Shown: one piece after another, positions 40,269-54,687 of the stretch
Numbering within the stretch: the first letter of the stretch is position 1
Layout: each line of letters starts with the position of its first letter
NCBI GenBank assembly: GCA_903970475.1
Contig: CAJCIQ010000021.1
Coordinates: forward strand, 1 to 64,000
Length of the DNA stretch: 64,000 bases
Direction of reading: 5' to 3'
From: Beijerinckiaceae bacterium
Lineage (GTDB): Bacteria > Bacteroidota > Bacteroidia > Chitinophagales > Chitinophagaceae
Program-made: the position numbers and the translations under genes
Notes under the pieces: model-generated
What the model was told of the DNA's origin: nothing
The model's input: only the letters and a program-made list of their open reading frames with translations
The model's database searches: none

Positions 40269-40832
40269 TTAAAATGTTGAAATCGTAGCTTGGTAATTGG
40301 TCAAAAGGGTAATCAGCGCATCTCCTCCCTGGGTCAGCGGGCCATTATTCCGGATGATGATGGTCCCTCCGGATCTGTCGGTGATTTCCGGTTTGCGCTG
40401 TAATCTTCTTTCAATGTCATCGGTGGTTTCCCGACCTCTGGTTTCTAACCTGAGCCGGATAATGTCGGGGTCGGCCTCTATGAGTACAGGAACGAGGTGG
40501 GGATACTGTTCCAGGGCGATCGGCAAGTGTGCCCTGGACCCATTCACCACCACGGAACAACCGGCTTGTAGCCATAGGTCTATTTCTCTGCCTATACCAT
40601 AATATAGGTCATGACTTTCCCAGTGAAGGGCCAAAGCGCCACTGTCTCTTCTTTGGATAAATTCTTTGGTGCTGAGGTAAATGTGGTTCTCGTCACCTTC
40701 TTTGGGTGGGCGGGTGATATATCGGTGTGCAAACATCAATGGCTGGGATCCATTAATGGTTCTGCGAGCGTATTGCATCAGGCTGTCTTTTCCGACACCG
40801 GATGCGCCAATGATGTAAAATAGTAGCGCCAT
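40269..40832 (-). CDS. phnN: Ribose 1,5-bisphosphate phosphokinase PhnN
   Basis: 187 residues of the guanylate-kinase-like fold. Walker A IIGASGVGKDSLMQYA (about 7-22), AHRYITRPPKEGDENHIYLS, ALHWESHDLYYGIG, VVVNGSRAHLPIALEQYP. PhnN converts ribose 1,5-bisphosphate and ATP to PRPP, the last step in recycling the ribose left by C-P lyase. It heads the minus-strand arm, ahead of susC-susD-phosphatase. This is unusual: phnN normally sits with the other phn genes, whereas here the rest are divergent and 1.1 kb away. Confidence 0.93.
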   Translation of the reverse strand: MALLFYIIGASGVGKDSLMQYARRTINGSQPLMFAHRYITRPPKEGDENHIYLSTKEFIQRRDSGALALHWESHDLYYGIGREIDLWLQAGCSVVVNGSRAHLPIALEQYPHLVPVLIEADPDIIRLRLETRGRETTDDIERRLQRKPEITDRSGGTIIIRNNGPLTQGGDALITLLTNYQATISTF

Positions 40833-41091: not shown

Positions 41092-41802
41092 ATGAAAAAG
41101 AACAAATTGGTGCTGATCGATGATCACCCAGACACCATAGAGCTGCTTAAGTACAATCTTTCCTCAGAAGGTTATGATATAAAGGCCTTTTACAATGCCG
41201 TGGATGCATTGAAGTACATCACAGTGGAAAATACCGATCTGGTGATTACGGATTGGATGTTGCCGGAAATGGATGGCCTTGATTTTTGCCGGAACCTCAA
41301 GCAGCATCCTACTACCCAGGAGATACCTGTTGTTATGCTCACTTGCAAAAGCGATGAGATTGATGCAGTGACTGCCTTGGAGGTAGGCGCGGAGGAATTT
41401 ATCAGCAAACCGGTACGCATGAGGGAGATGCTCACCAGGATCAAAAAGATCCTGAAGCGAAAAGTTGTCGAGCTTACGGCCTTGTCGGGAAAAGATGTAC
41501 GGGAATCCATAATCCGGGGGAGACTAAAACTGGACCTGGCCAGTTATGCTGTATACCTGGAGGATGAACCCCTGGAGCTGACTATTGTGGAGTTCCGTTT
41601 GTTGGAATTGTTGGCCAAGCAACCCGGTAAGGTGTTTTCCCGGAATCAGATCATGGAAAGGGTCAGTGGCATGGATTATTTTGCTGCTGAAAGGTCGGTG
41701 GATGTACAGGTAGCCGGCTTGAGGAAAAAGCTCGGGGCTTATAAAGATGGTATAGAAACCATACGATCAGTAGGATACCGACTAAATGAGAAGGCATTAT
41801 GA
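41092..41802 (+). CDS. OmpR/PhoB-family response regulator (orphan)
   Basis: 236 residues. Receiver domain (about 1-120) with acidic pair DD at 10-11, phosphoacceptor Asp54 in LVITDWMLPEMDGLDF, the conserved Thr in VVMLTCKS and Lys in FISKPVRM. Winged-helix domain (about 140-233): LTIVEFRLLELLAKQPGKVF, RSVDVQVAGLRKKLGAYKDG, IETIRSVGYRL. No histidine kinase gene is in the window. It sits between the two arms of the phosphonate locus, so it is the likely regulator of both, possibly a phosphate-limitation signal like PhoB; the signal is inferred. Confidence 0.88.
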   Translation: MKKNKLVLIDDHPDTIELLKYNLSSEGYDIKAFYNAVDALKYITVENTDLVITDWMLPEMDGLDFCRNLKQHPTTQEIPVVMLTCKSDEIDAVTALEVGAEEFISKPVRMREMLTRIKKILKRKVVELTALSGKDVRESIIRGRLKLDLASYAVYLEDEPLELTIVEFRLLELLAKQPGKVFSRNQIMERVSGMDYFAAERSVDVQVAGLRKKLGAYKDGIETIRSVGYRLNEKAL

Positions 41803-41922: not shown

Positions 41923-42351
41923 ATGGAGATGATGATAGACGTAGACTTCATTCTTTGCGAGTGTAACCTCGAAGCCCTCAAGTCTTTTGTGGAAAGCCTG
42001 GAAGGCATTTACCAAACCTTGGTCTCCAGAGACCCCTCTTTGTGCACGGTGATGATTCCTGCCGAAGATTCCGTGGAGGGGCAACCCTTTTACCTGGGGG
42101 AAGCCCTGGTCACAGAATGTGAGGTGGTTTTGCAGGGGCAGGTTGGCTTTGGCATTTGCCTGGGAGACGAACCCGTCAGGTGTTATTGCATAGCCTTCCT
42201 GGATGCTGCGCTTCAATTAAATGATGCGCACTACGACCGGATCATGCAATTTTTAAAGGAACAGGACGCCCTGGTTACACAAGCGCACGTCGTGGAATAC
42301 AACCATATCCAGCGCACCAAAGTGGATTTCAAACTCATGGAACAGGATTAA
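41923..42351 (+). CDS. phnG: C-P lyase core subunit PhnG
   Basis: 142 residues, close to the 150 of E. coli PhnG. The core segments PFYLGEALVTECEVVLQGQV and GFGICLGDEPVRCYCIAFLD with the C-terminal QTK-type end (IQRTKVDFKLMEQD) match the family. PhnG forms the G2H2I2J2 core complex and with PhnI and PhnL couples phosphonate to the ribose of ATP. Three in-frame ATGs lie within the first ten bases of the start, so the exact start is open. phnH begins 2 bases after its stop. Confidence 0.9.
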   Translation: MEMMIDVDFILCECNLEALKSFVESLEGIYQTLVSRDPSLCTVMIPAEDSVEGQPFYLGEALVTECEVVLQGQVGFGICLGDEPVRCYCIAFLDAALQLNDAHYDRIMQFLKEQDALVTQAHVVEYNHIQRTKVDFKLMEQD

Positions 42352-42353
42352 TT

Positions 42354-43031
42354 ATGCATAGGGAAATAGTTTATGACCCCGTATTTGATGCCCAACGGCA
42401 TTACCGGCAATTATTAGACTGCATGTCCAGACCTGGGAAACTGAATCGGTTGGACAGGATGGATCTACATGTTCCTGGCGGTATACATGAGGGAGCGGCC
42501 CTGGTGGCTTTTGCCTTGCTCAATGCGGACGTAACCTTTTTTGCGGCAGGTATTGGTGCTGCGGAGATCAACGCTTATTTGAAGACCCAGACTTTTGGGC
42601 GCCCTGCTCCTGGAGCGGAGGCTGACTTTCTGTTTCTGAGTGGGGCTGATGCAATGTGGATCAGCAAGGCAAAGCGCGGCACGCTGCCCTACCCGGAAGA
42701 AGGAGCTACGCTTGTACTGAGTGTGGATGCGTTGGTACCTGGGAGCCTCCTGGTGGAACGGTTGACGCCCGAGGGGGAGCTTCGCGGGGAGAGCGAGCAA
42801 CCGGAGCGTAAGAGGCCGGAAGCGTCCCATAGCCCTGTCCTTACGTTGACCTTATCAGGGCCGGGCATTGAAAAGGAACGCTACCTGGGCGTTTCCGGTT
42901 TAAGCAGGGAATTCTTTACTGAGTGGAGTGCGTGCAACCAGGAATTCCCCCTGGGTGTAGACCTGATCCTGGCCGATCCATACGGATGGATAGGATCCCT
43001 ACCCAGAAGCACGCAGATAGAAGTACACTGA
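42354..43031 (+). CDS. phnH: C-P lyase core subunit PhnH
   Basis: 225 residues, about 30 longer than E. coli PhnH (194). Family features: YDPVFDAQRHYRQLLDCMSR then PGKLNRL; EADFLFLSG; YPEEGATLVLSVDAL; LTLSGPGIEKERYLGVSGLS; FPLGVDLILADPYGWIGSLP. PhnH is a structural subunit of the core complex. The extra length is a charged, low-complexity insert (about residues 140-160; GELRGESEQPERKRPEAS) encoded by GC-rich DNA just before the conserved SGPGI segment. Confidence 0.92.
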   Translation: MHREIVYDPVFDAQRHYRQLLDCMSRPGKLNRLDRMDLHVPGGIHEGAALVAFALLNADVTFFAAGIGAAEINAYLKTQTFGRPAPGAEADFLFLSGADAMWISKAKRGTLPYPEEGATLVLSVDALVPGSLLVERLTPEGELRGESEQPERKRPEASHSPVLTLTLSGPGIEKERYLGVSGLSREFFTEWSACNQEFPLGVDLILADPYGWIGSLPRSTQIEVH

Positions 43032-43047
43032 TAAATACCATTCAATT

Positions 43048-44184
43048 ATGGGATATGTAGCGGTTAAGGGCGGTTCAGACGCCATTCACCACGCCGGAGA
43101 GTTGGTGGAGTTTTACCGGGTAAAGGAAGGTACGACTCCGCTGGAGGTGGCCCAAATTTCGGCCCAACTTCGGCTGGCAGTTGATAAAGTGATCGGCGAA
43201 GGCGGACTGTACGCGCCTGAATATGCAGCCATTGCCTTGAAGCAAGCTGAAGGAGAAGTCTTTGAAGCAGCTTTTATCTTAAGGGCTTTCATTACCACCC
43301 TGGAACGACGTTATTATGCGGAGCCCATACAAACCAGGGAGATGTTCATCCGCAGGAAAATCTCTGCTTCGTTCCGGGAAATTCCGGGCGGACAGGTGTT
43401 GGGGCCTACCCGGGACTATACCCAAAGGATAATGGATACAGCAAAGGTCAATGAAACCCTGGAGGACATGAAGGCCTTTTTGCAGAAGTTTGAATCCAGG
43501 TTGGATAAGAACCACCTTCAGGAAGTCACTACGTATGCAAAGGTCATAGACCTGCTGAAAAGGGAAGGTTTGTTGCAATCCGTTGCGGGTGATGAAGACA
43601 GGACCCTGAAGGATATTACCAGGGAAGCCATACGGTTTCCAGCCCCTCGTTCTGCCCGATTGCAAATGATGTCCAGGGCAGAAACCGGTGGCTTGATGGC
43701 TTTGGGATACAGCAGCATGCGGGGTTTCGGTAGTGACCATCCAACGGTAGCAGAATTGCGCTATGGTACGGTACCACTCAGGATAAAGGATCCCGGTGGG
43801 AGAATACGTTATGTAGGTAAGATTGCCGTGACAGAAGCCGAAATGATATCCATGAAAAAACAATCTAAAAAAGGAGAGGCTCCCTTATATGGTATAGGAT
43901 ATGGACTATGCTTTGGACAGAACGATACCAAAGCCATTTGTATGGGCATCCTGGATAGGACTATGCGCGCTCCGGATCCCAGTTCCCCGCCCAACGACCA
44001 GGAGTTCGTACTCTACCATACCGAAGGAATAGAATCCATGGGATTCACCAACCACCTTAAGCTACCTCACTATGTCACCTTTCAGGCAGGCCTCAACAAT
44101 GTAAGGGCTGCCGTCAAGCGATCCACTCAAAACGTCGTCACGTCAGCGCCCACCGTCACGACACAACCCGCCGTCACACCATGA
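43048..44184 (+). CDS. phnI: C-P lyase core subunit PhnI
   Basis: 378 residues (E. coli 354). PhnI acts as nucleosidase and, with PhnG, PhnH and PhnL, forms ribose 1-phosphonate triphosphate. Conserved: YVAVKGGSDAIHHAGELVEF, EGGLYAPEYAAIALKQAEGE, EIPGGQVLGPTRDYTQRIMD, GYGLCFGQNDTKAICMGILD, and TNHLKLPHYVTFQ, whose two His match the metal-binding His328 and His333 of the E. coli protein. The last 15 or so residues are a Thr/Pro/Val-rich tail. The stop overlaps the phnJ start by four bases (ATGA), so translation is probably coupled. Confidence 0.95.
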   Translation: MGYVAVKGGSDAIHHAGELVEFYRVKEGTTPLEVAQISAQLRLAVDKVIGEGGLYAPEYAAIALKQAEGEVFEAAFILRAFITTLERRYYAEPIQTREMFIRRKISASFREIPGGQVLGPTRDYTQRIMDTAKVNETLEDMKAFLQKFESRLDKNHLQEVTTYAKVIDLLKREGLLQSVAGDEDRTLKDITREAIRFPAPRSARLQMMSRAETGGLMALGYSSMRGFGSDHPTVAELRYGTVPLRIKDPGGRIRYVGKIAVTEAEMISMKKQSKKGEAPLYGIGYGLCFGQNDTKAICMGILDRTMRAPDPSSPPNDQEFVLYHTEGIESMGFTNHLKLPHYVTFQAGLNNVRAAVKRSTQNVVTSAPTVTTQPAVTP

Positions 44185-45077
44185 CTCCCTATACCAAATA
44201 TCAAAGCCGGTACAACTTTGCCTTCATAGATGAATCTACCAAAAAGGAGATCAGGAGAAAGTTGCTCAAAGCCATAGCCATTCCGGGTTATCAAGTACCT
44301 TATTCTTCCCCTGAAATGCCCATAGCCAGAGGCTGGGGTACGGGGGGGCTGCACGTGACTTTGTCCCTTATAGGGAAAGAGGATGTCCTCAAAGTCATAG
44401 ATCAGGGCAGTGATGCCAGCGTCAATGCCTGTAATCTCCGGGAGTTCATTCAAAGTATGACCCAGTGTCAAACAACGTATGATACGGTTGATGCAACCCT
44501 CATCCAAAGCCGGCACCGTATCACAGAAGAAGCGCTCAGGGAAGATCAGATCTTTATTTTTCAGGTGCCACAACCTGAACCCTTGCGGTCGGTGGAACGC
44601 TACGAGTTCAAAACCCGGCAAATGCATGGGGAGGCGGATTATGCAAAAATGTGGGTCTCTCTCTATGAGTCCTTTGTCAGGCATGGGGATATTATGCTCG
44701 GTGCCGGGTATCCTGTAAAAGTAAACGGACGGTATATAATGGCTCCTTCCCCCATTCCCCGTTGGGATATACCCAACCTTTCTCAGGCGAAAACCCTTTA
44801 TCTGTTTGGAGCCGGGAGGGAAAAGCGCTTATACGCGGTACCTCCTTTCACCACTGTGGAACCCCTCGAATTTGAGGACGTCAAATTCAATATTGAGCAG
44901 TTCGGGGACCAAAGATGTTATAAGACCAAATATACCCGCGCCTTCCTGGATGAACTCTATTTGGACGATGGATCCAGGATGCACGTAGTCAACGACAGCA
45001 ATTTTCTGGACAAGCTGGAGGCTGGAGCAGAAGTGAATCCTTTTTTCAACCCTTACCTGGCAAAAATTGATTTATGA
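44181..45077 (+). CDS. phnJ: PhnJ-type C-P lyase with altered cysteine motif
   Basis: 298 residues. Strong family identity: LLKAIAIPGYQVPYSSPEMP (Gly36 equals the glycyl residue Gly32 of E. coli), ARGWGTGGLHVTLSLIGKED, TDDATLIQ-like DATLIQSRHRI, DQIFIFQVPQPEPLR, GYPVKVNGRYIMAPSPIPRW and LFGAGREKRLYAVPPF. PhnJ is the radical SAM enzyme that breaks the C-P bond; in E. coli Cys241, 244 and 266 hold the iron-sulfur cluster and Cys272 carries the thiyl radical. Aligning FLDELYLDD with SYLDEVVLDD puts Cys246 on 241, but Thr249, Val270 and Leu276 on 244, 266 and 272. Only two other Cys exist (84, 96). The frame is intact and the alignment continues through this region, so this is substitution rather than frameshift. 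Overlaps phnK by four bases. Confidence 0.92.
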   Translation: MTPYTKYQSRYNFAFIDESTKKEIRRKLLKAIAIPGYQVPYSSPEMPIARGWGTGGLHVTLSLIGKEDVLKVIDQGSDASVNACNLREFIQSMTQCQTTYDTVDATLIQSRHRITEEALREDQIFIFQVPQPEPLRSVERYEFKTRQMHGEADYAKMWVSLYESFVRHGDIMLGAGYPVKVNGRYIMAPSPIPRWDIPNLSQAKTLYLFGAGREKRLYAVPPFTTVEPLEFEDVKFNIEQFGDQRCYKTKYTRAFLDELYLDDGSRMHVVNDSNFLDKLEAGAEVNPFFNPYLAKIDL

Positions 45078-45922
45078 GCATGCAGCAACACCCGTGGTTA
45101 TTAAGGGTAGAAAACCTGACAAAAATATACGGTGAACCCGGCCCGGATACCCTTTCCAAAACAGGCCCGTCTTTTGAATCCAATATATGCCCCGACACAG
45201 ATAGCATCGTGGCTTGCGCAGACGTGAGTTTTGATTTGTATCCCGGAGAGGTGCTGGGCATCGTTGGTGAAAGTGGTTCCGGTAAGAGTACCGTGGTGAA
45301 GCTGCTTTGTTTTGATATGGAACCATCGGTGGGTAATGCATGGTTACGGCCCTATATGGATGGGGCTGTGGACATGCTGCATGTCTCGGGCCAACAAAAA
45401 CGCTTCATCCGGCATCACCTCATGGGGGTGGTCTATCAAAATCCCAGGGATGGCTTAAACTTCCGCTTTTCTTCGGGGGGGAATATCGCAGAGAAGCTCA
45501 TCATGGCCGGGCATATGCACGTGGGGAGGATAAGGGAAAGGGCCTCCTTCCTGCTGGAGAAAACAGAAGTGCCCATCCGGCGTATGGATGACCTTCCGGC
45601 CTCCTTCAGTGGGGGCATGCAACAGCGGGTCCAGATCGCCAAGGCCATTGCCAATCACCCGCCCTTATTGTTTTTAGATGAAGTAACGACTGGCCTGGAC
45701 GTTTCTGTCCAGGCTAAGGTATTGGACCTGATCCGGGAGCTGCAACAGGAACTGGGTGTAGCCATGATTGTTGTGTCCCATGACCTCTCTGTTATCCGCA
45801 TGTTGACCGACAGGACCTTGGTTATGAAAAACGGAAGGGTAGTGGAAAGCGGGCTAACCGATCAGATCCTGCAAGATCCCCAGCACCCTTATACCCAATT
45901 GTTGGTTAGTTCTTTACTCTAA
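45074..45922 (+). CDS. phnK: C-P lyase ABC-type ATPase PhnK
   Basis: 282 residues, 30 more than E. coli PhnK. Walker A VGESGSGKSTVV, Q-loop VVYQNPRDGLNF (the NPRDGL segment is typical of PhnK), signature FSGGMQQRVQIAKAI, Walker B LLFLDEVTTGLD, and switch His in VVSHDLSVI. It docks on the PhnJ side of the core complex and uses ATP in the reaction cycle; it is not a transporter. The extra length is an insert between the first strands (about residues 20-45). Overlaps phnJ (ATGA). Confidence 0.93.
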   Translation: MSMQQHPWLLRVENLTKIYGEPGPDTLSKTGPSFESNICPDTDSIVACADVSFDLYPGEVLGIVGESGSGKSTVVKLLCFDMEPSVGNAWLRPYMDGAVDMLHVSGQQKRFIRHHLMGVVYQNPRDGLNFRFSSGGNIAEKLIMAGHMHVGRIRERASFLLEKTEVPIRRMDDLPASFSGGMQQRVQIAKAIANHPPLLFLDEVTTGLDVSVQAKVLDLIRELQQELGVAMIVVSHDLSVIRMLTDRTLVMKNGRVVESGLTDQILQDPQHPYTQLLVSSLL

Positions 45923-45935
45923 TCTATTTGACCAT

Positions 45936-46652
45936 ATGAACATCGTTGAAGTCCGCCGGTTGAGTAAGCAATTTGAGTTGCATATCCTCAAAGAAAAAAG
46001 GATACAGGCATTGGAATCCATCGACCTGGATATTGCAGAAGGGGAGATTATAGGCTTGACGGGCAAATCGGGTTCCGGAAAGTCCAGCCTGATGAAATGT
46101 CTATACCGAACCTACCTGTCCAGCGCAGGCCATATTTTCTATAGAACAGGCCAGGGTAGGGTAATTGACCTGGCCTCAGCGGGTGACCACGAGATTATTC
46201 AATTAAGAAAAACCGAGATCCGCTATTGTTCCCAGTTTCTGAGTGTGATCCCCAGGGTATCGGCCGTGGACGTGGTGAGCGAACCATTAATGCCCATTTT
46301 GAAGGATAGGGCCATTGCTCAGGAAGCGGCAAAAGACCTGCTGGAAAGACTGGGTTTGCCAAAGGGGTTATGGGATGCTTATCCGGTCACTTTTAGCGGA
46401 GGCGAACAACAACGCATCAATGTGGCCAGGGCCATTATTTCCAGGCCAAGGTTGTTATTGATCGACGAGCCTACGGCTTCTCTGGATACCCGGACCAAAG
46501 ATGTAGTCATTGACCTGATCCGGTCCCTTAAAACAGCAGGGACTTCTGTGCTCTGTATTTCTCATGATGAGTATGTCCTGGATCGGTTATCAGATAGAAG
46601 GTTGCACCTGCAATCGGGAAGGATTGTACACAGCATTCAACCATCACTATAA
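45936..46652 (+). CDS. phnL: C-P lyase ABC-type ATPase PhnL
   Basis: 238 residues (E. coli 226). Walker A LTGKSGSGKSSLMKCL, the PhnL-typical Q-loop EIRYCSQFLSVIPRVSAVDV, signature FSGGEQQRINVARAI, Walker B LLLIDEPTASLD, and switch His in CISHDEYVLD. It assists PhnG, PhnH and PhnI in the nucleophilic transfer of phosphonate to ATP ribose. 13 bases after phnK. Confidence 0.93.
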   Translation: MNIVEVRRLSKQFELHILKEKRIQALESIDLDIAEGEIIGLTGKSGSGKSSLMKCLYRTYLSSAGHIFYRTGQGRVIDLASAGDHEIIQLRKTEIRYCSQFLSVIPRVSAVDVVSEPLMPILKDRAIAQEAAKDLLERLGLPKGLWDAYPVTFSGGEQQRINVARAIISRPRLLLIDEPTASLDTRTKDVVIDLIRSLKTAGTSVLCISHDEYVLDRLSDRRLHLQSGRIVHSIQPSL

Positions 46653-46667
46653 AAAACGAGTTTTCAT

Positions 46668-47843
46668 ATGCACGCATGGATGATCACCAATGCTGAGGTG
46701 ATAACACCTACAGAGGTACTCTCTCCCGGATTTGTATGGGTGGAAGGAACAAAAATCAGGGAAATTGGACAATGGGAGGAAGGCATGTATCTTCCTGAAA
46801 GGGAAGGATTGCAGGTATTGGATGCAAAAGGGGCTATCGTCATGCCCGGGATTATTGACATACATACCGATGCCATGGATATGGAAATCATACCCAGGCC
46901 GGGAGCCGATATTCCCATTGCCATTGCCGCCAGGGAGCTGGAACGCAAAATGAGCGCTTGTGGGATTACCACGGTATTCCATTCCCTTCACCTGGGCTAC
47001 GAAAGCGCGGAAACACATTCCCGGAGCAAGTATAGCCGCAATGAAGTGTTTGCCGAAGTGTCCCGTATGGCTGCCGGCCCCACCTTATTGCACAACAAGA
47101 TCCACCTGCGCTTTGAACTCAGCGGCATAAAGGCTTATGAGGAATGCCTGGCTTTACTGGAGGGTGGATCTATATCCCTGCTGTCTGTTATGGATCATAC
47201 CCCTGGTCAGGGCCAATTCAATAAAACGAATTTTAAGGCACATATCCTGTCCCAGGGAAAAAGTGAATCAGAATTTGAAGAAGAATTAGCCCTGAGGTTG
47301 AGTCGCCCCAAAGTGGAAGGAGAACAGTTGAGCCAACTCATTGACCTGGCACTGGAGCTGGGTATTGCGGTGGCTTCTCACGATGATGACAGCATAGAAA
47401 AGGTGGATAATATGTTAGCCCTGGGGGTTCAGATCTGCGAATTTCCCATCACCATGGAGGCGGCAGCACACGCTTCCAGTATGGGTATGCACGTAGCTGG
47501 AGGCGCTTCCAATGTATTGAGGGGCGGCTCTTTGTCGGGGAATCTGCGTATAGCCGAAGCTGTTACCCAGGGTGCAGTGGGTATACTTTGTTCGGATTAC
47601 TATCCGGCGTCTATCTTGCATTCCATATTCCGTTTGCATAGGGCCTATGGCTTAAGCCTGCCCGATGCCGTCAACCTGGCCTCCCTGCATCCTGCCCAGG
47701 CGACCGGTTTAGCAGGTGTAACGGGTAGCCTGGAAGAAGGGAAAGAAGCAGACTTACTCGTTGTTCGGCTAATAGATGATATACCCATGGTGACCCATAC
47801 CATGGTTGCTGGTTCCATGGTCATGCAAACAGCACATAAGTAG
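46668..47843 (+). CDS. phnM: PhnM, ribose 1-phosphonate triphosphate diphosphatase (first copy)
   Basis: 391 residues, amidohydrolase superfamily. IITNAEVITP-type start (WMITNAEVITPTEVLSPGFV), metal site HxD in MPGIIDIHTDAMDMEIIPRP, CGITTVFHSLHLGYE, VMDHTPGQGQF, ASHDDDSIEKVDNMLALGV, ILCSDYYPASIL, and the usual C-terminal LEEGKEADLLVV. It releases pyrophosphate from ribose 1-alkylphosphonate 5-triphosphate to give the PhnJ substrate. 15 bases after phnL. A second phnM is at the end of the operon. Confidence 0.94.
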   Translation: MHAWMITNAEVITPTEVLSPGFVWVEGTKIREIGQWEEGMYLPEREGLQVLDAKGAIVMPGIIDIHTDAMDMEIIPRPGADIPIAIAARELERKMSACGITTVFHSLHLGYESAETHSRSKYSRNEVFAEVSRMAAGPTLLHNKIHLRFELSGIKAYEECLALLEGGSISLLSVMDHTPGQGQFNKTNFKAHILSQGKSESEFEEELALRLSRPKVEGEQLSQLIDLALELGIAVASHDDDSIEKVDNMLALGVQICEFPITMEAAAHASSMGMHVAGGASNVLRGGSLSGNLRIAEAVTQGAVGILCSDYYPASILHSIFRLHRAYGLSLPDAVNLASLHPAQATGLAGVTGSLEEGKEADLLVVRLIDDIPMVTHTMVAGSMVMQTAHK

Positions 47844-47844
47844 T

Positions 47845-48684
47845 ATGGCACAAGATCTTTCCTTTTCAGCATATACGGCCCGTCAATTCCATGAATTGGA
47901 ACAGGGTCAGCTCATCAGCAGGGCTTCGGAGGTGCGCCCATCTGGGAATTACCGCTATGAGGATGGACAATGGATCCCCAATCCTTACCCAGGCTTTGCC
48001 GTAATCACGATGGTTTCCGATCACCCCAGGAATGCCTCTTTACCAGAAGCATTGACGGAAGTGCAACGGGATTTGGTGAGCTCCTGTCCTTGGGAAGGAT
48101 CCCTCTATCTGTTGCCTCCGTCGAGTTTTCACCAAACGATTGCCAACACCCTTTCGGCCTCCCGGTTTCTGGAGCATATATACAATCCCGGGCTGGAGCC
48201 AGATTTTCCCGGATGGGTAGGGGAGGCTTTTAAGGGGATCGCCGGAGACGCTCGTGCGATCGCCGGAGACGCTAACGGGATCGCGAGGACTGATATGGGG
48301 ACAATGGGCGCCCGGGGTGGCTTCGTCATGAACCTGATCGGTCTTTCCATATTCGGTACCGCCTTGGGAGCTTTAGGGGTATTTGAGAACCAGTCAGCTT
48401 ATCAAAAAATTTTGCGCTTTCGGGAAGGGCTCTATGGTGATGAAGTCATGGGTGGATTAGACATAAAATGCACCAGGCCTTTCATTGGTCATGTATCCCT
48501 GGCCTATGTAGCACAAGAACTGACCCCCACGCAAAAGCGGGCATTGGGAGCCTCCGTATATCAGATCAATCAGGATCATTTCCGTACACCCCTCTCCTTT
48601 TACCTGGACCAGACTGGACTTAAGCGATACGAACATTTATCGGAATTTAAGACGGCCCCGTCCTACCCTTCCTATTACTTTTAA
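47845..48684 (+). CDS. 2H phosphoesterase (DUF1868-like)
   Basis: 279 residues from the ATG at 47845, one base after the phnM stop; the frame opens upstream inside phnM. Two HxT/S motifs define the 2H phosphoesterase fold: LLPPSSFHQTIAN (His96-Gln-Thr98) and FIGHVSLAYV (His216-Val-Ser218). The family opens cyclic phosphodiesters. Because PhnP, which opens the cyclic ribose 1,2-phosphate made by PhnJ, is missing here, this protein is a good candidate for that step; that is inference. A 21-base tandem repeat adds a 7-residue repeat (GIAGDARAIAGDANGIA) near residue 131. Confidence 0.72.
   Translation: MAQDLSFSAYTARQFHELEQGQLISRASEVRPSGNYRYEDGQWIPNPYPGFAVITMVSDHPRNASLPEALTEVQRDLVSSCPWEGSLYLLPPSSFHQTIANTLSASRFLEHIYNPGLEPDFPGWVGEAFKGIAGDARAIAGDANGIARTDMGTMGARGGFVMNLIGLSIFGTALGALGVFENQSAYQKILRFREGLYGDEVMGGLDIKCTRPFIGHVSLAYVAQELTPTQKRALGASVYQINQDHFRTPLSFYLDQTGLKRYEHLSEFKTAPSYPSYYF
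48237..48284 (+). repeat. In-frame 21-base tandem repeat in the 2H phosphoesterase gene
   Basis: GATCGCCGGAGACGCT occurs at 48237 and 48258, and a third partial unit begins at 48279. The 21-base period adds whole codons, so the frame is kept. It is GC-rich relative to its surroundings and lies between the two catalytic motifs. Confidence 0.75.
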
Positions 48685-49353
48685 ATGCCCAACATGACTT
48701 ACATTGACCATTATCCTGAAGGACAACCTGCTGCTGCGCGCACGCTGGGAGATACGCCTACCATTCACCCCGGATGCCATATCCTTCGCTCGCAAGTTGG
48801 GGCCTGGACAGAATTGGGCGCGGGCACTTCCCTGGTGGATGTTACTTTCGGAGATTACAGTTATACCGCCGGTGACGCTCAAATCATCTATGCGACTATA
48901 GGAAAATATTGTTCCATTGCTTCCCATGTGCGCATTAATCCGGGCAACCATCCACAATGGAGGGTAACCCAGCACCACATGACCTACAGGCGAAAAGCGT
49001 TTGGTTTGGGTCAGGCCGATGACAAGGAATTTTTTGAATGGAGAAAGGAGCATGCCTGCCATATAGGCCATGATGTCTGGATAGGACATGGCGCCATTAT
49101 CATGCCCGGTGTAAGCATTGGTACGGGGGCGGTTATTGGAAGCGGAGCCGTCGTTACCAAAGACGTGGGCCCTTATCAGGTAGCCGTAGGCGTTAGCGCA
49201 AAAGTCATTAAACAACGTTTTCCGGATGAGGTAGTGGAACAGTTGCTGCAAAGCGAGTGGTGGAATTGGGACAGGGCAACACTAGAGGCCCGTTTCGAAG
49301 ATCTCTTAGACCTGCAAACTTTTCTCCATAAATACACAAACGTCACCGCATGA
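48685..49353 (+). CDS. Hexapeptide-repeat acetyltransferase of the phosphonate cluster
   Basis: 222 residues with a left-handed beta-helix of hexapeptide repeats: about 25-85 ([40 protein letters not shown]) and again 125-165 ([20 protein letters not shown] then [20 protein letters not shown]). It resembles the xenobiotic/streptogramin acetyltransferase-like proteins often encoded in phn operons. In such operons it may acetylate aminoalkylphosphonates, the role of PhnO, which is missing here. It starts on the base after the previous stop and overlaps phnD by four bases. Confidence 0.85.
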
Positions 49354-50273
49354 AGGCAATCATAACAGGACTGCTCCTGAGTGTTATCACAGCAACAGGG
49401 ATTGGATGCAGGAGTAAGACCGCCCTGGATCCCAGTGGTACTCCTTATCAATTGGTGGTGGGCATCTATGAGGGGGATAACCCTGGAGAACTGACCAAAG
49501 CCCTGGAACCGGTTAGGGCTTATTTGTCCAAAAAGCTGGGTATGCCCGTGGTATTTCAGGAAACCACGGATTACAGTTCTGTCATAGAAGCCCTTATGAC
49601 TAAAAAGGTACATATGGCCTACCTGAGTCCCTTTCCCTATGTGCTGACCACCCAAAAAATGAAATTGGTTCCCATCGTAGTGCCCGGCAGGAATGGCCAA
49701 CCTGCGTTTTATCATAGCTTAATCGTTACGGGAGCGGGCTCTGGCATTCATTCTATGGATGACCTCAAGGTAAAATCCCATTCCCTGACGCTTTGTTTTG
49801 CCGACCCTATTTCTACTTCAGGACATTTGGTTCCCAGGGCATACTTGCGCAGTATTAACCTGGACCCCACCACCAGTTTTAAACAAACCCTGTTTGCAGG
49901 CTCTCATTTTGCTTCGATTCTCATGGCAAAAACGGGTAAGGTTGATGTAGCGTGCGCTTTTAATTATGCATTGGATAAGCTCATCCGGGAAAAGACCATA
50001 AAACCCGGGGACATAGTGGTGCTCTGGCAATCAGATCCCATTGAACAAAATCCAATAGCTATGCGTCCGGACATCAATCCGGCTTTTACCGAAAAAGTAA
50101 AACAGGCTTACCTGGATATGAAAAAGGATGACTCGGTGGCTTTCCGGTCCTACCTATCCATTTACATGCCCAATGATGTTTCGTCTATGTCTTATATACC
50201 ATTTGCGGATGCTGATTTCGACGGTGTGCGTAAGCTTGTCAAAGGCATAGATCCTTCGGATATAAAAAATTAA
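49350..50273 (+). CDS. phnD: Phosphonate-binding protein PhnD
   Basis: 307 residues. The N-terminus [20 protein letters not shown] suggests a lipoprotein, although Gly at -3 is not ideal for a lipobox. Periplasmic-binding fold of the PhnD/SsuA type: [40 protein letters not shown] followed by [27 protein letters not shown] (ligand-binding STSG). It delivers phosphonates to PhnC-PhnE. Overlaps the preceding gene (ATGA); phnC follows after 10 bases. Confidence 0.93.
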
Positions 50274-50283
50274 ATTTTTCTCC

Positions 50284-51069
50284 ATGATAGAGGTGCGCCA
50301 TATCTGCAAGACTTTACCGGGAGGTAGAAGGGTGCTGGATGACCTGAGCTTCACGGTGAGAAAAGGTGAATTTGTCGGCGTCCTCGGGGCCAGCGGAGCC
50401 GGTAAGACCCTAACACTTCGCTGCCTGAATGGGTTATTGAAACCTGATTCGGGTTCTATACTTATAGCATTGCCGGGGGGAGGGGTGGAGGATATTTGCA
50501 AGGTTCCTTCCCGAAAGCTAAGGCAGATCCGACAGCGCATAGGTGTCGTGTTTCAAGGCTATCATTTGGTCAAGAGACTGACCGTATTGGAAAATGTGCT
50601 GGTGGGCAGATTGGGTCAGATCAGCACCTTCCGTTCACTGATCTATGGCTTTAAAGATAAAGAGGCAGAAGAAGCCGTAGCAGCCTTGGAAAAGGTGAAG
50701 GTTGCCCACCTGGCAGGAGCTAGGGTGTCTTCTTTAAGCGGCGGTGAAATGCAAAGGGTTGCCATTGCCAGGGCTATTTTTCAAAACCCCCATCTACTCC
50801 TTGCCGATGAACCCATATCTAACCTGGATCCCTCCAATGCAAAAGTGATCATGCGCCTGATCCGCCCTTTGTGTGAGGAGATGCCGGTCATCGGGGTCTT
50901 TCATCAACCGGAAATGACAGCCAAATATTGCACCCGGATCATTGCCATCAAAGAGGGACGTATCGTCTACGATGGACAGCCTGTGCTGACCCAGGAGCAA
51001 TTGATTGACATTTATGGAGAAGAGCTTCGTCAAATAGAAAACCATAACCATGAACGTCCTGTCTTATAA
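50284..51069 (+). CDS. phnC: Phosphonate ABC transporter ATPase PhnC
   Basis: 261 residues. Walker A VLGASGAGKTLTLRCLNGLL, Q-loop VVFQGYHLVKRLTVLENVLV, signature LSGGEMQRVAIARAI, Walker B LLADEPISNLDPSNAK, switch His in GVFHQPEM. The LTVLENVLVGRLG segment is typical of PhnC. It powers phosphonate import with the two PhnE permeases. Its last 20 bases overlap the first phnE. Confidence 0.94.
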   Translation: MIEVRHICKTLPGGRRVLDDLSFTVRKGEFVGVLGASGAGKTLTLRCLNGLLKPDSGSILIALPGGGVEDICKVPSRKLRQIRQRIGVVFQGYHLVKRLTVLENVLVGRLGQISTFRSLIYGFKDKEAEEAVAALEKVKVAHLAGARVSSLSGGEMQRVAIARAIFQNPHLLLADEPISNLDPSNAKVIMRLIRPLCEEMPVIGVFHQPEMTAKYCTRIIAIKEGRIVYDGQPVLTQEQLIDIYGEELRQIENHNHERPVL

Positions 51070-51139
51070 AAAGAATCGGATGAGCACCCTGCCCTCTAAA
51101 AGAGACCGGGCCAGTGCCCTGCCCTACAAAGGGGGCCGG
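51050..51139 (+). repeat. Three 30-base tandem units at the 5' end of phnE
   Basis: Units at 51050, 51080 and 51110, each ending in CGG and encoding roughly x-S-x-L-P-Y/S-K-x-x-R. Units one and two both begin with ATG, so there are two in-frame starts. The first unit overlaps the end of phnC. Confidence 0.75.
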
Positions 51140-51889
51140 TATCTCCGTTACCTGCTTCCTTTAGGTGTCCTGGGGGTTCTTACCTGGCTATCCTCGATGG
51201 TCTGCCATACGAACTGGGCTTCTCTGGCCAAGGGGATCCACGAAAGTTTGCCTTACTTTAAAAACCTGCTGGCGCCAGATTGGTCTGCCCTTAGCTCTTT
51301 ACTCAAACCTGCCCTGGACAGCGTATTGATTGCCCTGGTGGGCACTTTTGCAGGAACCCTGATTGCTGTTTTTTTTGCTTTATCCGCCGCATCCAATGTA
51401 GCTCCCCGCCCGGTGCGTTTTATCGTCAGGGCGTTAATGGGTATCGAAAGAGCCCTTCCTGAAATCGTCATTCTTTTATTCCTGGTAGCCGCTTTTGGTA
51501 TGGGGCCTTTCTCAGGGGTATTGTCTTTGACCATTGGTTGTGTGGGGATGTTGGGTAAACTCCTGGCAGACGCCATTGAAGAACTCGATCCGGTGTACAT
51601 AGAGTCGATGGAAGCCGTGGGGGCCCGAAAGGTGCAGGTATTGTTTTTTGGCGTGATCCAGCCTATCGTACCCACCATTGTTTCCTATGGTCTGTTTCGT
51701 TTCGAAATGAGCATACGGCTGTCCATTGTTTTAGGCGCCGTAGGCGCAGGAGGGATCGGTATGGAACTATACAGGGCTTTTTCCCTTTATGAATATCCCA
51801 GGGCTTCCATGGCCCTGCTGCTGATATTGGTCCTGGTATTTTTAAGTGAAAGGGGAGCGGCCTACCTCCGCAAAAAATATTTCACATGA
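51050..51889 (+). CDS. phnE: Phosphonate ABC transporter permease PhnE (first copy)
   Basis: 279 residues. Several hydrophobic segments (YLLPLGVLGVLTWLSSMVC; SVLIALVGTFAGTLIAVFFA; IVILLFLVAAFGMGPFSGVL; ASMALLLILVLVFLSERGAA) and the EAA-type loop PVYIESMEAVGARKVQVLFF that contacts PhnC. The N-terminus is made of three imperfect 10-residue repeats encoded by 30-base units, the first two each starting with ATG; the start may thus be 51050 or 51080. The stop overlaps the next permease by four bases. Confidence 0.92.
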   Translation: MNVLSYKKNRMSTLPSKRDRASALPYKGGRYLRYLLPLGVLGVLTWLSSMVCHTNWASLAKGIHESLPYFKNLLAPDWSALSSLLKPALDSVLIALVGTFAGTLIAVFFALSAASNVAPRPVRFIVRALMGIERALPEIVILLFLVAAFGMGPFSGVLSLTIGCVGMLGKLLADAIEELDPVYIESMEAVGARKVQVLFFGVIQPIVPTIVSYGLFRFEMSIRLSIVLGAVGAGGIGMELYRAFSLYEYPRASMALLLILVLVFLSERGAAYLRKKYFT

Positions 51890-52695
51890 ATGCTGTTCCT
51901 GGATATACGCTGCCTTCCATAAAGTATAAACAAAAAGCGACGATTGCTACGGCGGTGGCATTCGTTTTTGTCGGACTCTGCGTGGCCATGGGATTTGATC
52001 CAGCCCTGTTGTTTACCGAATTTCATTATGTAAGAGACTTGGCGGGAAGCATGACTCCGCCTAATTTCAAGGTATTCTGGTCGGATGCCGGTATATACAT
52101 GGCCATAGCGGAAAGCCTGTGTATGGCATTCCTGGGTACGCTGTTGGGGGGATTGGGCGGTTTGGCCCTGGCCTTCGGTAGTGCAGGTCCCACCATGCCC
52201 TGGAAGGGGGTGAGGATGGTATGCAGGGGTATACTGACCTTGCTCAGGGTCATTCCAACGTTAATCCTGATCCTGATATTTGTTGTTTCCGTGGGGATAG
52301 GGCCCTTTTCCGGTGTGCTTACGCTGTTGCTCGCCACCATAGGTGGCTTTGGTCAGTTATTTACCCAAGTCATAGAGCAAGCGGAACCCAAACCATTGGA
52401 AGCCGTCTACTCCGTGGGCGCCAGCAGGGTTCAGGTCATCCGTTTCGGCCTTTGGCCTCAGGTGCTGCCCTCCTTTATTGCCAATATGTTTTATGCCTAT
52501 GACGTCAACCTCAGGGCTGGTATCGGATTGGGTATATTCGGAGGCGGGGGTGTGGGATTTCAGTTGTTCATGGCCATTCGCCTCCTTCACTACAAAGAGG
52601 CTTTTGCCCTGATCTGTGTAACGGTGGTCCTTATCGTACTCATGGAGAAGGCTAGTGACCTGCTCAGGACGTCTTTGTTGCAAAAAAACCTATAA
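51886..52695 (+). CDS. phnE: Phosphonate ABC transporter permease PhnE (second copy)
   Basis: 269 residues, related to the preceding permease. Membrane segments include TIATAVAFVFVGLCVAMGF, LCMAFLGTLLGGLGGLALAF, RVIPTLILILIFVVSVGIGP and ALICVTVVLIVLMEKASDLL. EAA-type loop PKPLEAVYSVGASRVQVIRF. Two different PhnE proteins would form the heterodimeric pore with PhnC. Start overlaps the previous stop (ATGA). Confidence 0.92.
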   Translation: MNAVPGYTLPSIKYKQKATIATAVAFVFVGLCVAMGFDPALLFTEFHYVRDLAGSMTPPNFKVFWSDAGIYMAIAESLCMAFLGTLLGGLGGLALAFGSAGPTMPWKGVRMVCRGILTLLRVIPTLILILIFVVSVGIGPFSGVLTLLLATIGGFGQLFTQVIEQAEPKPLEAVYSVGASRVQVIRFGLWPQVLPSFIANMFYAYDVNLRAGIGLGIFGGGGVGFQLFMAIRLLHYKEAFALICVTVVLIVLMEKASDLLRTSLLQKNL

Positions 52696-52744: not shown

Positions 52745-53938
52745 ATGCAGCGCTTTCTTTTGACCAATGCCCAGGTCGTCACACCTACTGAACACTTCAC
52801 CGGATCCGTCTATATTGAAGATGGGCGTATTTCGGCCATTCATAAGGACAGGCATTATCCTGAAGGAATAGATCTGAGGGGAGCGTGGCTGATTCCAGGA
52901 TGCATAGACATTCACTCTGATTACCTGGAAAAGGAGCTGTATCCAAGGCCAGGATCTGTTTTTCCTTTGCCCTTTGGGTTACATTATTTAGATGTCAGGG
53001 CTGCGGCCTGCGGAATTACCACTGTATTCAGTGCCATCAGCTTTTCGGATAACGTGCATAAAAACAGGAATTTTTCCGAGGCCATACGAATGGCTACCCA
53101 ATTTGATCAGCTTCGGCCTACCTTATTGTTACGACACTACCTGCATGCGCGAATTGATCCCAATACGCATTCTGTGCTAGATCACCTCATGGAAATGAAT
53201 CAACTCGAAAGTTTGTATATGGTCGTGTACAATGAAAATATACCTGGAGAAAGACAGTTTTCCTTCAACCAGCAGATCGAGATGCGGATGAAGGAAAATG
53301 GCTGCACCTGGGAGGCGGCCAGGGATCAGCTTTTATCGAAGTTCCAATTGGCCAGGGAAATTAACCACCGGCTTCCTATACAGATGGCCTTTGAAGGTAA
53401 ATGTATCCTGGGCAGCCATGATGATACCACGGTTAACCACGTGATAGAAGCCAAGGATGCGGGAGCGGTATTATCGGAAATGCCTACCACGCTACAGGCG
53501 GCGAGGAAGGCTAAGGAGTTGGGATTATGGGTTTGCATGGGCGCCCCCAACTATTACAAGGGAGGGTCCCATTGCGGTAACCTGTCTTGTGAGGAAGCTA
53601 TGGAAGAAGACCTGGTGGATATGCTTTGCAGTGATTATCATTTTCCAACCATGTTGGGAAGTGTGGTAAAGATGATGGAAGAGGGCATACATCCCTCCAA
53701 GGCGGTCAATATGGTCAGTCTTCATCCCGCTCAGTTGTTGCAGTTCGAACAGGAGGTGGGATCCATTTCCATAGGGAAAAGGGCTGACCTGGTTGCTTTT
53801 CGTACCGAAAGAGCGATCGCTTCCGTATCTAACGTATGGGTGGACGGGGTGGAGCGTTATGCCGCCCATTATGGCGCTAAAACCGTTTCCCTATCCAAGG
53901 CCACGGGCATAAATTATAAAAGGGGGACAGGTGCATGA
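52745..53938 (+). CDS. phnM: PhnM-like amidohydrolase (second copy)
   Basis: 397 residues with the same plan as the first PhnM: FLLTNAQVVTPTEHFTGSVY, HxD metal site IPGCIDIHSDYLEKELYPRP, AACGITTVFSAISFSDNVHK, LGSHDDTTVNHVIEAKDAGA, MLCSDYHFPTMLGSV, ISIGKRADLVAF. Metal ligands look intact, so it should be active. The copies are clearly diverged. It may prefer another phosphonate adduct. It comes 49 bases after phnE and overlaps the metallophosphoesterase by four bases. Confidence 0.9.
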   Translation: MQRFLLTNAQVVTPTEHFTGSVYIEDGRISAIHKDRHYPEGIDLRGAWLIPGCIDIHSDYLEKELYPRPGSVFPLPFGLHYLDVRAAACGITTVFSAISFSDNVHKNRNFSEAIRMATQFDQLRPTLLLRHYLHARIDPNTHSVLDHLMEMNQLESLYMVVYNENIPGERQFSFNQQIEMRMKENGCTWEAARDQLLSKFQLAREINHRLPIQMAFEGKCILGSHDDTTVNHVIEAKDAGAVLSEMPTTLQAARKAKELGLWVCMGAPNYYKGGSHCGNLSCEEAMEEDLVDMLCSDYHFPTMLGSVVKMMEEGIHPSKAVNMVSLHPAQLLQFEQEVGSISIGKRADLVAFRTERAIASVSNVWVDGVERYAAHYGAKTVSLSKATGINYKRGTGA

Positions 53939-54687
53939 AGATCGGCGTGATAGGAGATATTCATGAAGACGTATTGGCTTTACGCGAGTCCGTGAAGCGC
54001 ATGGAGCTGGCTGGTTGTACGGAGGTGATCTGTTTGGGGGATATAGTTGGTTTTAAGGTCAATACCTATCCTTATCTGGATACCCGCAGCGCGCACGAAT
54101 GCATTGCCATCGTCAGGGATATATGTTCCGGAGTAGTCATTGGCAACAATGACCTCTATCAGGTTAAAAAAATCCCCCGGTTTACCGGAGGCTTTCCCTT
54201 CCCGCCGGATTGGTATGACCTGGATTTTATGGAAAGAAAAACACTTTCTGAAGGTCGATTGTTCCTGTATGAAGATGTGCAGCTATCGGCGCTGTTGACG
54301 AAAACAGACCGGTCCTACCTGGAGTCCTTACCTGATTTTTTGATCAGGGATTACGCAGGACAGCGTTGGTTTTTCTCCCACTTCGCCTATCCTGATCTGC
54401 ATGGTCTTCATACCTCCTTTCCGAAAAGGGCGGAAGAAATCCTGGACCACCTGAGCTTTATCCGTTCCCAAGGTTGTGTATTGGGTGTCTCCGGGCATAT
54501 GCACCATGAAGGGATTACCCTCTGCGATGAAAGCGCGATCCATCGCCAGGGCTTTGGCACTTTCGCATTGCTGCCTTCCCTGCAATACTTATATGGACCT
54601 TGTATTGCCCGTTGCCAGGTTAACCATGGCTTTCTGATCCTGGATCCTGAGGAAGGCACCGTGGAGGCGGTAAGCCTGGGGGGGTGA
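53935..54687 (+). CDS. Metallophosphoesterase at the end of the phn operon
   Basis: 250 residues, calcineurin-like phosphoesterase of the YfcE/MJ0936 type. Metal motifs: GVIGDIHEDVLAL (DxH), ICLGDIVGF (GD), VIGNNDLY (GNxD, a variant of GNHD), FSHFAYP (His), and GVSGHMHHEG (GHxH). It is coupled to the second phnM (ATGA). It is a second candidate, besides the 2H protein, to hydrolyse cyclic or linear ribose phosphates from the pathway. No signal peptide. Confidence 0.85.
   Translation: MKIGVIGDIHEDVLALRESVKRMELAGCTEVICLGDIVGFKVNTYPYLDTRSAHECIAIVRDICSGVVIGNNDLYQVKKIPRFTGGFPFPPDWYDLDFMERKTLSEGRLFLYEDVQLSALLTKTDRSYLESLPDFLIRDYAGQRWFFSHFAYPDLHGLHTSFPKRAEEILDHLSFIRSQGCVLGVSGHMHHEGITLCDESAIHRQGFGTFALLPSLQYLYGPCIARCQVNHGFLILDPEEGTVEAVSLGG

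Follow-up and report, generated by a model that had tools for sequence, protein, structure and literature searches.

In oxygenated water, PhnJ is credited with freeing methane from methylphosphonate, although the chemistry proposed for it is strictly anaerobic. The mechanism of the E. coli enzyme has been described as strictly anaerobic, SAM-dependent and of the glycyl-radical type (PMC9947105, PMC10574752). Its residues Cys241, Cys244, Cys266 and Cys272 have been described as ligands of the cluster and of zinc, with Cys272 also acting as the radical carrier (PMC11978286). Because the mechanism is SAM-dependent and strictly anaerobic, loss of these ligands should abolish the E. coli-type reaction unless they are replaced. 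Here we analysed a stretch of DNA of 64,000 nucleotides (the window) whose phnJ gene (44181..45077, forward strand) encodes a protein of 298 amino acids in which three of the four cysteines are lost. Is this protein still a C-P lyase and, if it is, at which site does it act?

Cysteine losses in the window PhnJ

The protein matched the PhnJ profile PF06007 with 417 bits (cut-off 25), residues 10–278 covering profile positions 2–271 of 275. Its AlphaFold2 model (mean pLDDT 85.7) was superposed on E. coli PhnJ (7z18_D) over residues 8–283, with Z 37.7 and an rmsd of 2.0 Å for 275 residues, and the PhnJ fold is present including the central insertion and the C-terminal domain. By profile, fold and a phnGHIJKLM operon, the window protein is PhnJ by homology.

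Residues were mapped on E. coli PhnJ (PDB 7z15/4xb6, chain D; alignment E 4e-94). The aligned segment reads DEPCAICGSTHSYLDEV...MFVCSDTDYC in E. coli and DQRCYKTKYTRAFLDEL...MHVVNDSNFL in the window. C241 is kept as C246 (codon 44916..44918; all codons given here are on the forward strand), whereas C244 becomes T249 (44925..44927), C266 becomes V270 (44988..44990) and C272, the proposed thiyl radical, becomes L276 (45006..45008). A first reading of the window, made from the sequence only, had named the same kept cysteine and the same three replacements, and the alignment reproduces them exactly. That reading had also stated that Gly36 is conserved, that the rest of the protein is well conserved and that the operon is complete. 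Gly36 (44286..44288) is aligned with E. coli Gly32, the proposed glycyl radical, and is invariant in all PhnJ rows scored; the operon is complete, and includes PhnN and a 2H phosphoesterase-like gene.

The codons at the three lost positions are ACC, GTC and CTG. Each is two to three substitutions away from a cysteine codon, more than one sequencing error could account for. Among the features of an E. coli-type radical-SAM C-P lyase, the three-cysteine [4Fe-4S] set and Cys272 are missing, and the Gly32 equivalent and the zinc-histidine residues of PhnI and PhnJ are present. Judged by these features, the window PhnJ falls outside the E. coli-type radical-SAM definition.

Distribution and constraint of PhnJ with a single kept cysteine

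We refer to a PhnJ that keeps the C241 equivalent and lacks those of C244, C266 and C272 as C-minus, and to one with all four cysteines as C-plus. A scan of the genome collection for PhnJ gave 66 loci. All scorable PhnJ proteins of Bacteroidota and Opitutales were C-minus (56 rows including some loci fetched twice, 39 of them distinct). This group, lineage 1, includes Puia, Mucilaginibacter, Sphingobacterium, Emticicia, Allomuricauda, Aquimarina, Pelagicoccus and others, and its members show one cysteine, Thr or Ser three residues later, and hydrophobic residues at the remaining two positions. The pattern in a genome of the same genus as the window (L002) is identical. Other phyla in the scan retain C-x-x-C ... 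C-[SN]-D ... C. The sequence-only reading had proposed an alignment across Bacteroidota and Proteobacteria; the loss proved to be lineage-wide in Bacteroidota and to occur also in some Alphaproteobacteria, not in E. coli.

These further cases form lineage 2 (seven rows), found in Alphaproteobacteria and on plasmid pVV8 of Thermus thermophilus HB8. It was first met in a plasmid search, in Mesorhizobium sp. AR07, whose PhnJ has the first cysteine only; the same single cysteine is kept in Microvirga, Rhizobium, Sinorhizobium, Haematobacter and Nitratireductor. The C-minus trait thus spans several phyla, which goes beyond the sequence-only reading. All 44 other intact PhnJ proteins, from E. coli, Actinomycetota, Bacillota, Chloroflexota, Nitrospirota, haloarchaea and others, were C-plus. 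In total 107 rows were scored, 63 C-minus and 44 C-plus, and no intermediate was found among them. An actinobacterial PhnJ whose reading frame departs in the C-terminal cysteine region (L053) was set aside from scoring. In an Opitutales genome (L090 in G848) the phnJ frame is broken by one TAG stop, and this copy was also left out.

The Cys246 equivalent is the only cysteine kept in every PhnJ examined (107/107; 56/56 in lineage 1, 7/7 in lineage 2, 44/44 in C-plus rows). The position of Thr249 is Thr or Ser in 63/63 C-minus rows, that of Val270 is Ile, Val, Leu or Met in 63/63, and that of Leu276 is Leu, Met, Gly or Ala in 63/63; all three are cysteine in 44/44 C-plus rows. Lineage 1 has in addition fixed changes which, in E. 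coli numbering, are Ser at position 38, R40P, Q54H and V80C (window 44304-44312, 44352-44354 and 44430-44432), and the sequence-only reading had not mentioned the last three. R40P lies in the active-site loop of PhnJ. His58 (E. coli Gln54) is found in 56/56 rows of lineage 1, with Gln in 7/7 of lineage 2 and 42/44 C-plus rows; Cys84 (E. coli Val80) is fixed in lineage 1 only (56/56, against 1/7 and 0/44).

PhnJ is rare in Bacteroidota, as the low counts in sampled genomes indicate: 2/296 in the window's own family, 1/299 in the Allomuricauda family, 2/241 in the Emticicia order, 5/250 in the Mucilaginibacter order and 15/150 in Mucilaginibacter; one Opitutales order gave 4/223. Every PhnJ read from these genomes was C-minus, apart from the L090 copy with the TAG. 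Of 28 genomes searched, 27 had no PhnJ other than the C-minus one, and the 28th (L023) adds only broken pieces of a second copy. This genome (L023/L065) is a MAG labelled Bacteroides fragilis, a doubtful label, in which the intact C-minus phnJ and the broken copy lie about 20 kb apart on the same contig.

A PhnJ tree was built from core-domain positions only, excluding the C-terminal domain. Lineage 1 formed one clade of 39 distinct rows (SH-aLRT 100). On the free tree the C-minus label needs two changes, against a shuffled mean of about 30. However, a single C-minus clade was not rejected by the AU test (p 0.51), so the C-minus state may have arisen once or twice. We found no report of a PhnJ lacking these cysteines in the open-access literature, the scope of our search, and none of C-minus PhnJ in open-access work on phosphonate use by Mucilaginibacter or on Thermus pVV8. 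Nor did this search bring up activity, growth or metal measurements for any C-minus system.

The same losses would be expected in a decaying gene or a wrong sequence, and residues held to be essential are indeed missing. Since dS of the window phnJ was saturated against nearly all relatives (dN of PhnJ only 0.13–0.22), closer C-minus pairs were used for dN/dS. It was about 0.005–0.06 in close pairs of lineage 1 and about 0.07–0.20 in pairs of lineage 2. The C-terminal domain is also constrained in lineage 1 pairs; between L003 and L004, dN there was 0.010 and dS 1.19. Mean identity in the C-terminal domain versus the core was 0.62 versus 0.82 in lineage 1 and 0.42 versus 0.60 in C-plus proteins. 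This domain diverges faster relative to the core in lineage 1 than in C-plus, so constraint on it may be somewhat relaxed there. Low dN/dS, codons distant from cysteine, and one pattern repeated in 39 distinct core sequences of lineage 1 and seven of lineage 2 all speak against decay or error, to which we give next to no probability. C-minus PhnJ is under strong purifying selection and is neither an error nor a decaying gene. Sequencing error, which the sequence-only reading had named as a way to refute its claim, thus falls away, with L002 and dozens of independent genomes in agreement.

Operon, histidine site and possible replacement ligands

In the neighbourhood of phnJ, PhnN (ribose 1,5-bisphosphokinase) is encoded divergently (40269..40832, reverse strand; TIGR02322, 211 bits, above cut-off). 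All following genes are on the forward strand. A PhoB-like response regulator lies upstream of phnG (41092..41802; PF00072 and PF00486, with TIGR02154 as best model, below cut-off), and PhnG (41923..42351; TIGR03293, 96.7 bits), PhnH (42354..43031; TIGR03292, 137 bits), both above cut-off, and PhnI (43048..44184; PF05861, 422 bits) precede PhnJ. PhnK (45074..45922; PF00005, with TIGR02323 as best model at 252 bits, below cut-off) has an N-terminal insert with one cysteine (C39) of four, and is followed by PhnL (45936..46652; TIGR02324, 257.8 bits) and PhnM, the RPnTP diphosphatase (46668..47843; NF011990, 392.6 bits), both above cut-off.

The next gene (47848..48684) encodes a 2H phosphoesterase-like protein, a candidate PRcP cyclic phosphodiesterase by its motifs, weak DUF1868/LigT matches and model. 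It has invariant HQT and H-x-[TS] motifs (two H-x-[TS] in all), and its model (pLDDT 91) resembles 2H phosphoesterases, namely 2fsq (Z 17.5) and, at a Z of about 9.5, the Arabidopsis cyclic phosphodiesterase that acts on APPR>P (ADP-ribose 1'',2''-cyclic phosphate). The gene was present in 17/17 long Bacteroidota loci, and a PhnN homologue in 13/17 within the fetched stretch. Beyond it are a hexapeptide transferase of a phosphonate-associated family (48685..49353; TIGR03308, 270 bits, above cut-off), a phosphonate-type ABC transporter with PhnD, PhnC and two PhnE (49350..52695; PF12974, PF00005, PF00528), and a second PhnM-like amidohydrolase with a calcineurin-like phosphoesterase (52745..54687; NF011990, 286.8 bits; PF12850). 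The cluster thus holds two different PhnM-like amidohydrolases (46668-47843 and 52745-53938), the second followed by the phosphoesterase.

Residues of the histidine site in E. coli hold zinc, or a ligand that was modelled as PRcP, where PhnI and PhnJ meet (PMC9947105). In the same structures about 30 Å separate the cluster site from Gly32, a gap noted as unreconciled (PMC9947105). We found that PhnJ Gly36, R111, H112 and Q128 (E. coli Gly32, Arg107, His108 and Gln124) and PhnI H231, H336 and H341 (E. coli H219, H328 and H333, aligned to 4xb6_C) are invariant in C-minus systems, with one gap at H231. The codons of Arg111 and His112, whose E. coli counterparts touch the PRcP ligand at the zinc site (PMC9947105), lie at 44511..44516. 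Because three cysteines are lost and the histidine site is kept, the latter is the likely chemical centre in C-minus proteins, and the cysteine site would be dispensable there.

We then considered whether other residues could hold a cluster. From PhnG to PhnM the two lineages have a single conserved cysteine in common, PhnJ C246, and in four lineage 2 proteins (L091, L101, L104, L108) it is the sole cysteine of PhnJ. Lineage 1 has further invariant cysteines, namely PhnJ C84, PhnK C39 and C48 (56/56) and PhnG C79 (29/29), none of which is fixed in lineage 2. Since C246 is the only shared one, common cysteines are too few for a three-cysteine site, and on the scored sequences a [4Fe-4S] cluster on three of them is excluded as a solution common to both lineages. 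A new site specific to lineage 1 could in principle be formed from PhnJ C84, PhnK C39/C48 and PhnG C79, and a cluster could in principle be held by non-cysteine ligands or by heteromeric sites specific to that lineage.

Several candidates for compensation were rejected. Transfer of the cluster ligands to PhnK cannot be the general solution because lineage 2 PhnK lacks both the insert and C39/C48. An N-terminal insert bearing C-x2-C ... C-x2-C occurs in many C-plus PhnK proteins (Bacillota, Nitrospirota, Chloroflexota, haloarchaea); Bacteroidota PhnK keeps the insert with one of the four cysteines, and the insert is absent in E. coli and several alphaproteobacteria. Loss of these PhnK cysteines is not coupled to that in PhnJ, as they are also missing in actinobacterial, E. 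coli and alphaproteobacterial systems whose PhnJ has all four. PhnI D248, which is His in the C-plus rows first sampled, is not specific to C-minus systems because E. coli PhnI has Glu at that place. PhnJ C84, H58 and P44 are absent in lineage 2 apart from one Cys84, and are not an obligatory compensation.

An iron-sulfur cluster could still be bound by C246 together with non-cysteine residues (Thr/Ser, Asp, His) or with cysteines of PhnK or PhnG. C246 is invariant, the lineage 1 cysteines of PhnK and PhnG are fixed, and PhnJ binds PhnK (PMC9947105). However, PhnK meets PhnJ mainly at the central insertion domain, the residues replacing C266 and C272 are non-ligands, and lineage 2 combines a PhnK without these cysteines with a PhnJ that often has a single one; we consider such a cluster unlikely. 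The Gly36 radical might instead be generated by a separate radical-SAM activase acting in trans, the arrangement found in classical glycyl radical enzymes; this would account for a Gly36 that is invariant despite the loss of the in-cis cluster ligands. No credible CxxxCxxC protein is encoded near C-minus operons, and in 22 genomes or records, including three plasmids, no match of the PFL-activase type, the only activase family searched, exceeded its cut-off. Glycyl radicals are oxygen-sensitive, and the named C-minus hosts are largely aerobes (C-plus hosts include both anaerobes and aerobes). On these searches a separate activase finds no support, and we consider it improbable.

The complex may also have been repurposed, with C-minus PhnJ carrying out another ribosyl-linked reaction, or transfer only, and no C-P cleavage. 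The proposed catalytic Cys272 is lost, and R40P, Q54H and V80C are specific to lineage 1, as a change of reaction might predict. Against this, PhnM, PhnN, the phosphonate-type transporter, the 2H gene and the PhoB-like regulator all persist, and the same cysteine loss occurs in lineage 2 without the additional lineage 1 changes. We therefore doubt this explanation.

Proposed reaction and comparison with known systems

We suggest, with a probability of roughly 0.6, that C-minus PhnJ is a working variant C-P lyase in which cleavage would proceed without the proposed C-terminal cluster and the Cys272 thiyl radical. This suggestion is based on the sequence, the lineage-wide fixation, the constraint, the retained partners and the lack of a substitute three-cysteine set common to both lineages. 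The sequence-only reading had offered three options. Another cluster arrangement or chemistry stands, in the sense that the published three-cysteine cluster and Cys272 cannot exist in this protein and that no replacement set is shared; nor do other cysteines take over the cluster site in both lineages. A decayed enzyme is contradicted by the lineage-wide pattern, the low dN/dS and the status of C-minus PhnJ as sole copy. A scaffold for non-phosphonate substrates finds no support in an operon that keeps PhnG to PhnM, PhnN, the phosphonate transporter and the gene resembling a cyclic phosphodiesterase.

In the variant lyase, phosphonate would be loaded onto ribose by PhnG, PhnH, PhnI and PhnL, and PhnM would trim the ribosyl-phosphonate intermediate. 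C-P cleavage at the PhnI-PhnJ site would then give an alkane and PRcP, which the candidate 2H phosphoesterase may open before it is handed to PhnN. The C-terminal four-cysteine metal site has been given up; Thr/Ser, a hydrophobic residue and Leu/Met/Gly/Ala stand where its lost cysteines were, in a domain that is still folded and conserved. Cleavage would thus need neither a [4Fe-4S] at the PhnJ C-terminal site nor a Cys272 thiyl radical; the favoured candidate chemistry is a redox or radical reaction at the histidine-bound metal, with Cys246 as a possible thiol or thiyl donor. More tentatively, and at somewhat less than even odds, C-minus PhnJ may be a cluster-free, possibly oxygen-tolerant C-P lyase acting at the PhnI-PhnJ histidine metal site, and the E. 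coli four-cysteine site would then not be a universal catalytic centre. That oxygen tolerance is the reason for the C-minus state is speculation.

The C-minus clade is a natural mutant series in which cluster ligands are lost and the remainder is kept, and through it the disputed PhnJ mechanism can be tested directly. If C-minus PhnJ works, C-P cleavage can do without the cluster and Cys272; if it is inactive in this reaction, the lineage keeps a conserved enzyme for another purpose. Should the cluster-free lyase be real, the accepted radical-SAM mechanism would either be confined to certain lineages or place the chemistry at the wrong site. Surveys of phnJ in lakes count Bacteroidota and Verrucomicrobiota as able to cleave methylphosphonate (PMC10734540), so the activity of C-minus PhnJ also bears on environmental estimates.

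Compared with E. coli PhnJ (4xb6, 7z15-7z19), the window protein has the same fold, central insertion domain, Gly32, Arg107/His108/Gln124, C241 and operon partners; however, all four cysteines are present in E. coli and only the C241 equivalent in the window. C-plus PhnJ proteins of Actinomycetota, Bacillota, Nitrospirota, Chloroflexota and haloarchaea show about 50–63% identity to the window PhnJ and the same order PhnGHIJKL, but they have four cysteines, and many are accompanied by a four-cysteine PhnK insert that is cut to one cysteine in lineage 1. Lineage 2 PhnJ (T. thermophilus HB8 pVV8, alphaproteobacterial plasmids) shares the loss of three cysteines and the first one kept. Unlike the window PhnJ, it keeps Arg40 and Gln54, is variable at position 80, has a PhnK without the insert and forms a separate branch on the free tree.

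Very divergent PhnGHIJKL sets were seen on a Klebsiella plasmid (L110, pINF237_03) and a Martelella plasmid (L098); the stretches fetched have no annotated PhnM. All four cysteines are present in their PhnJ, but His108 is replaced by Gln, and Arg40 and Gln54 are changed. They are thus the reverse of the C-minus case and perhaps carry out a different reaction. The Klebsiella set adjoins an iron-type ABC transporter and McbC-like microcin genes.

A similar distinction is known for C-plus and C-minus ribosomal proteins, in which a four-cysteine metal motif has disappeared from paralogues or orthologues whose fold and function are retained. There the metal has a structural role, whereas the site lost in C-minus PhnJ is claimed to be catalytic.
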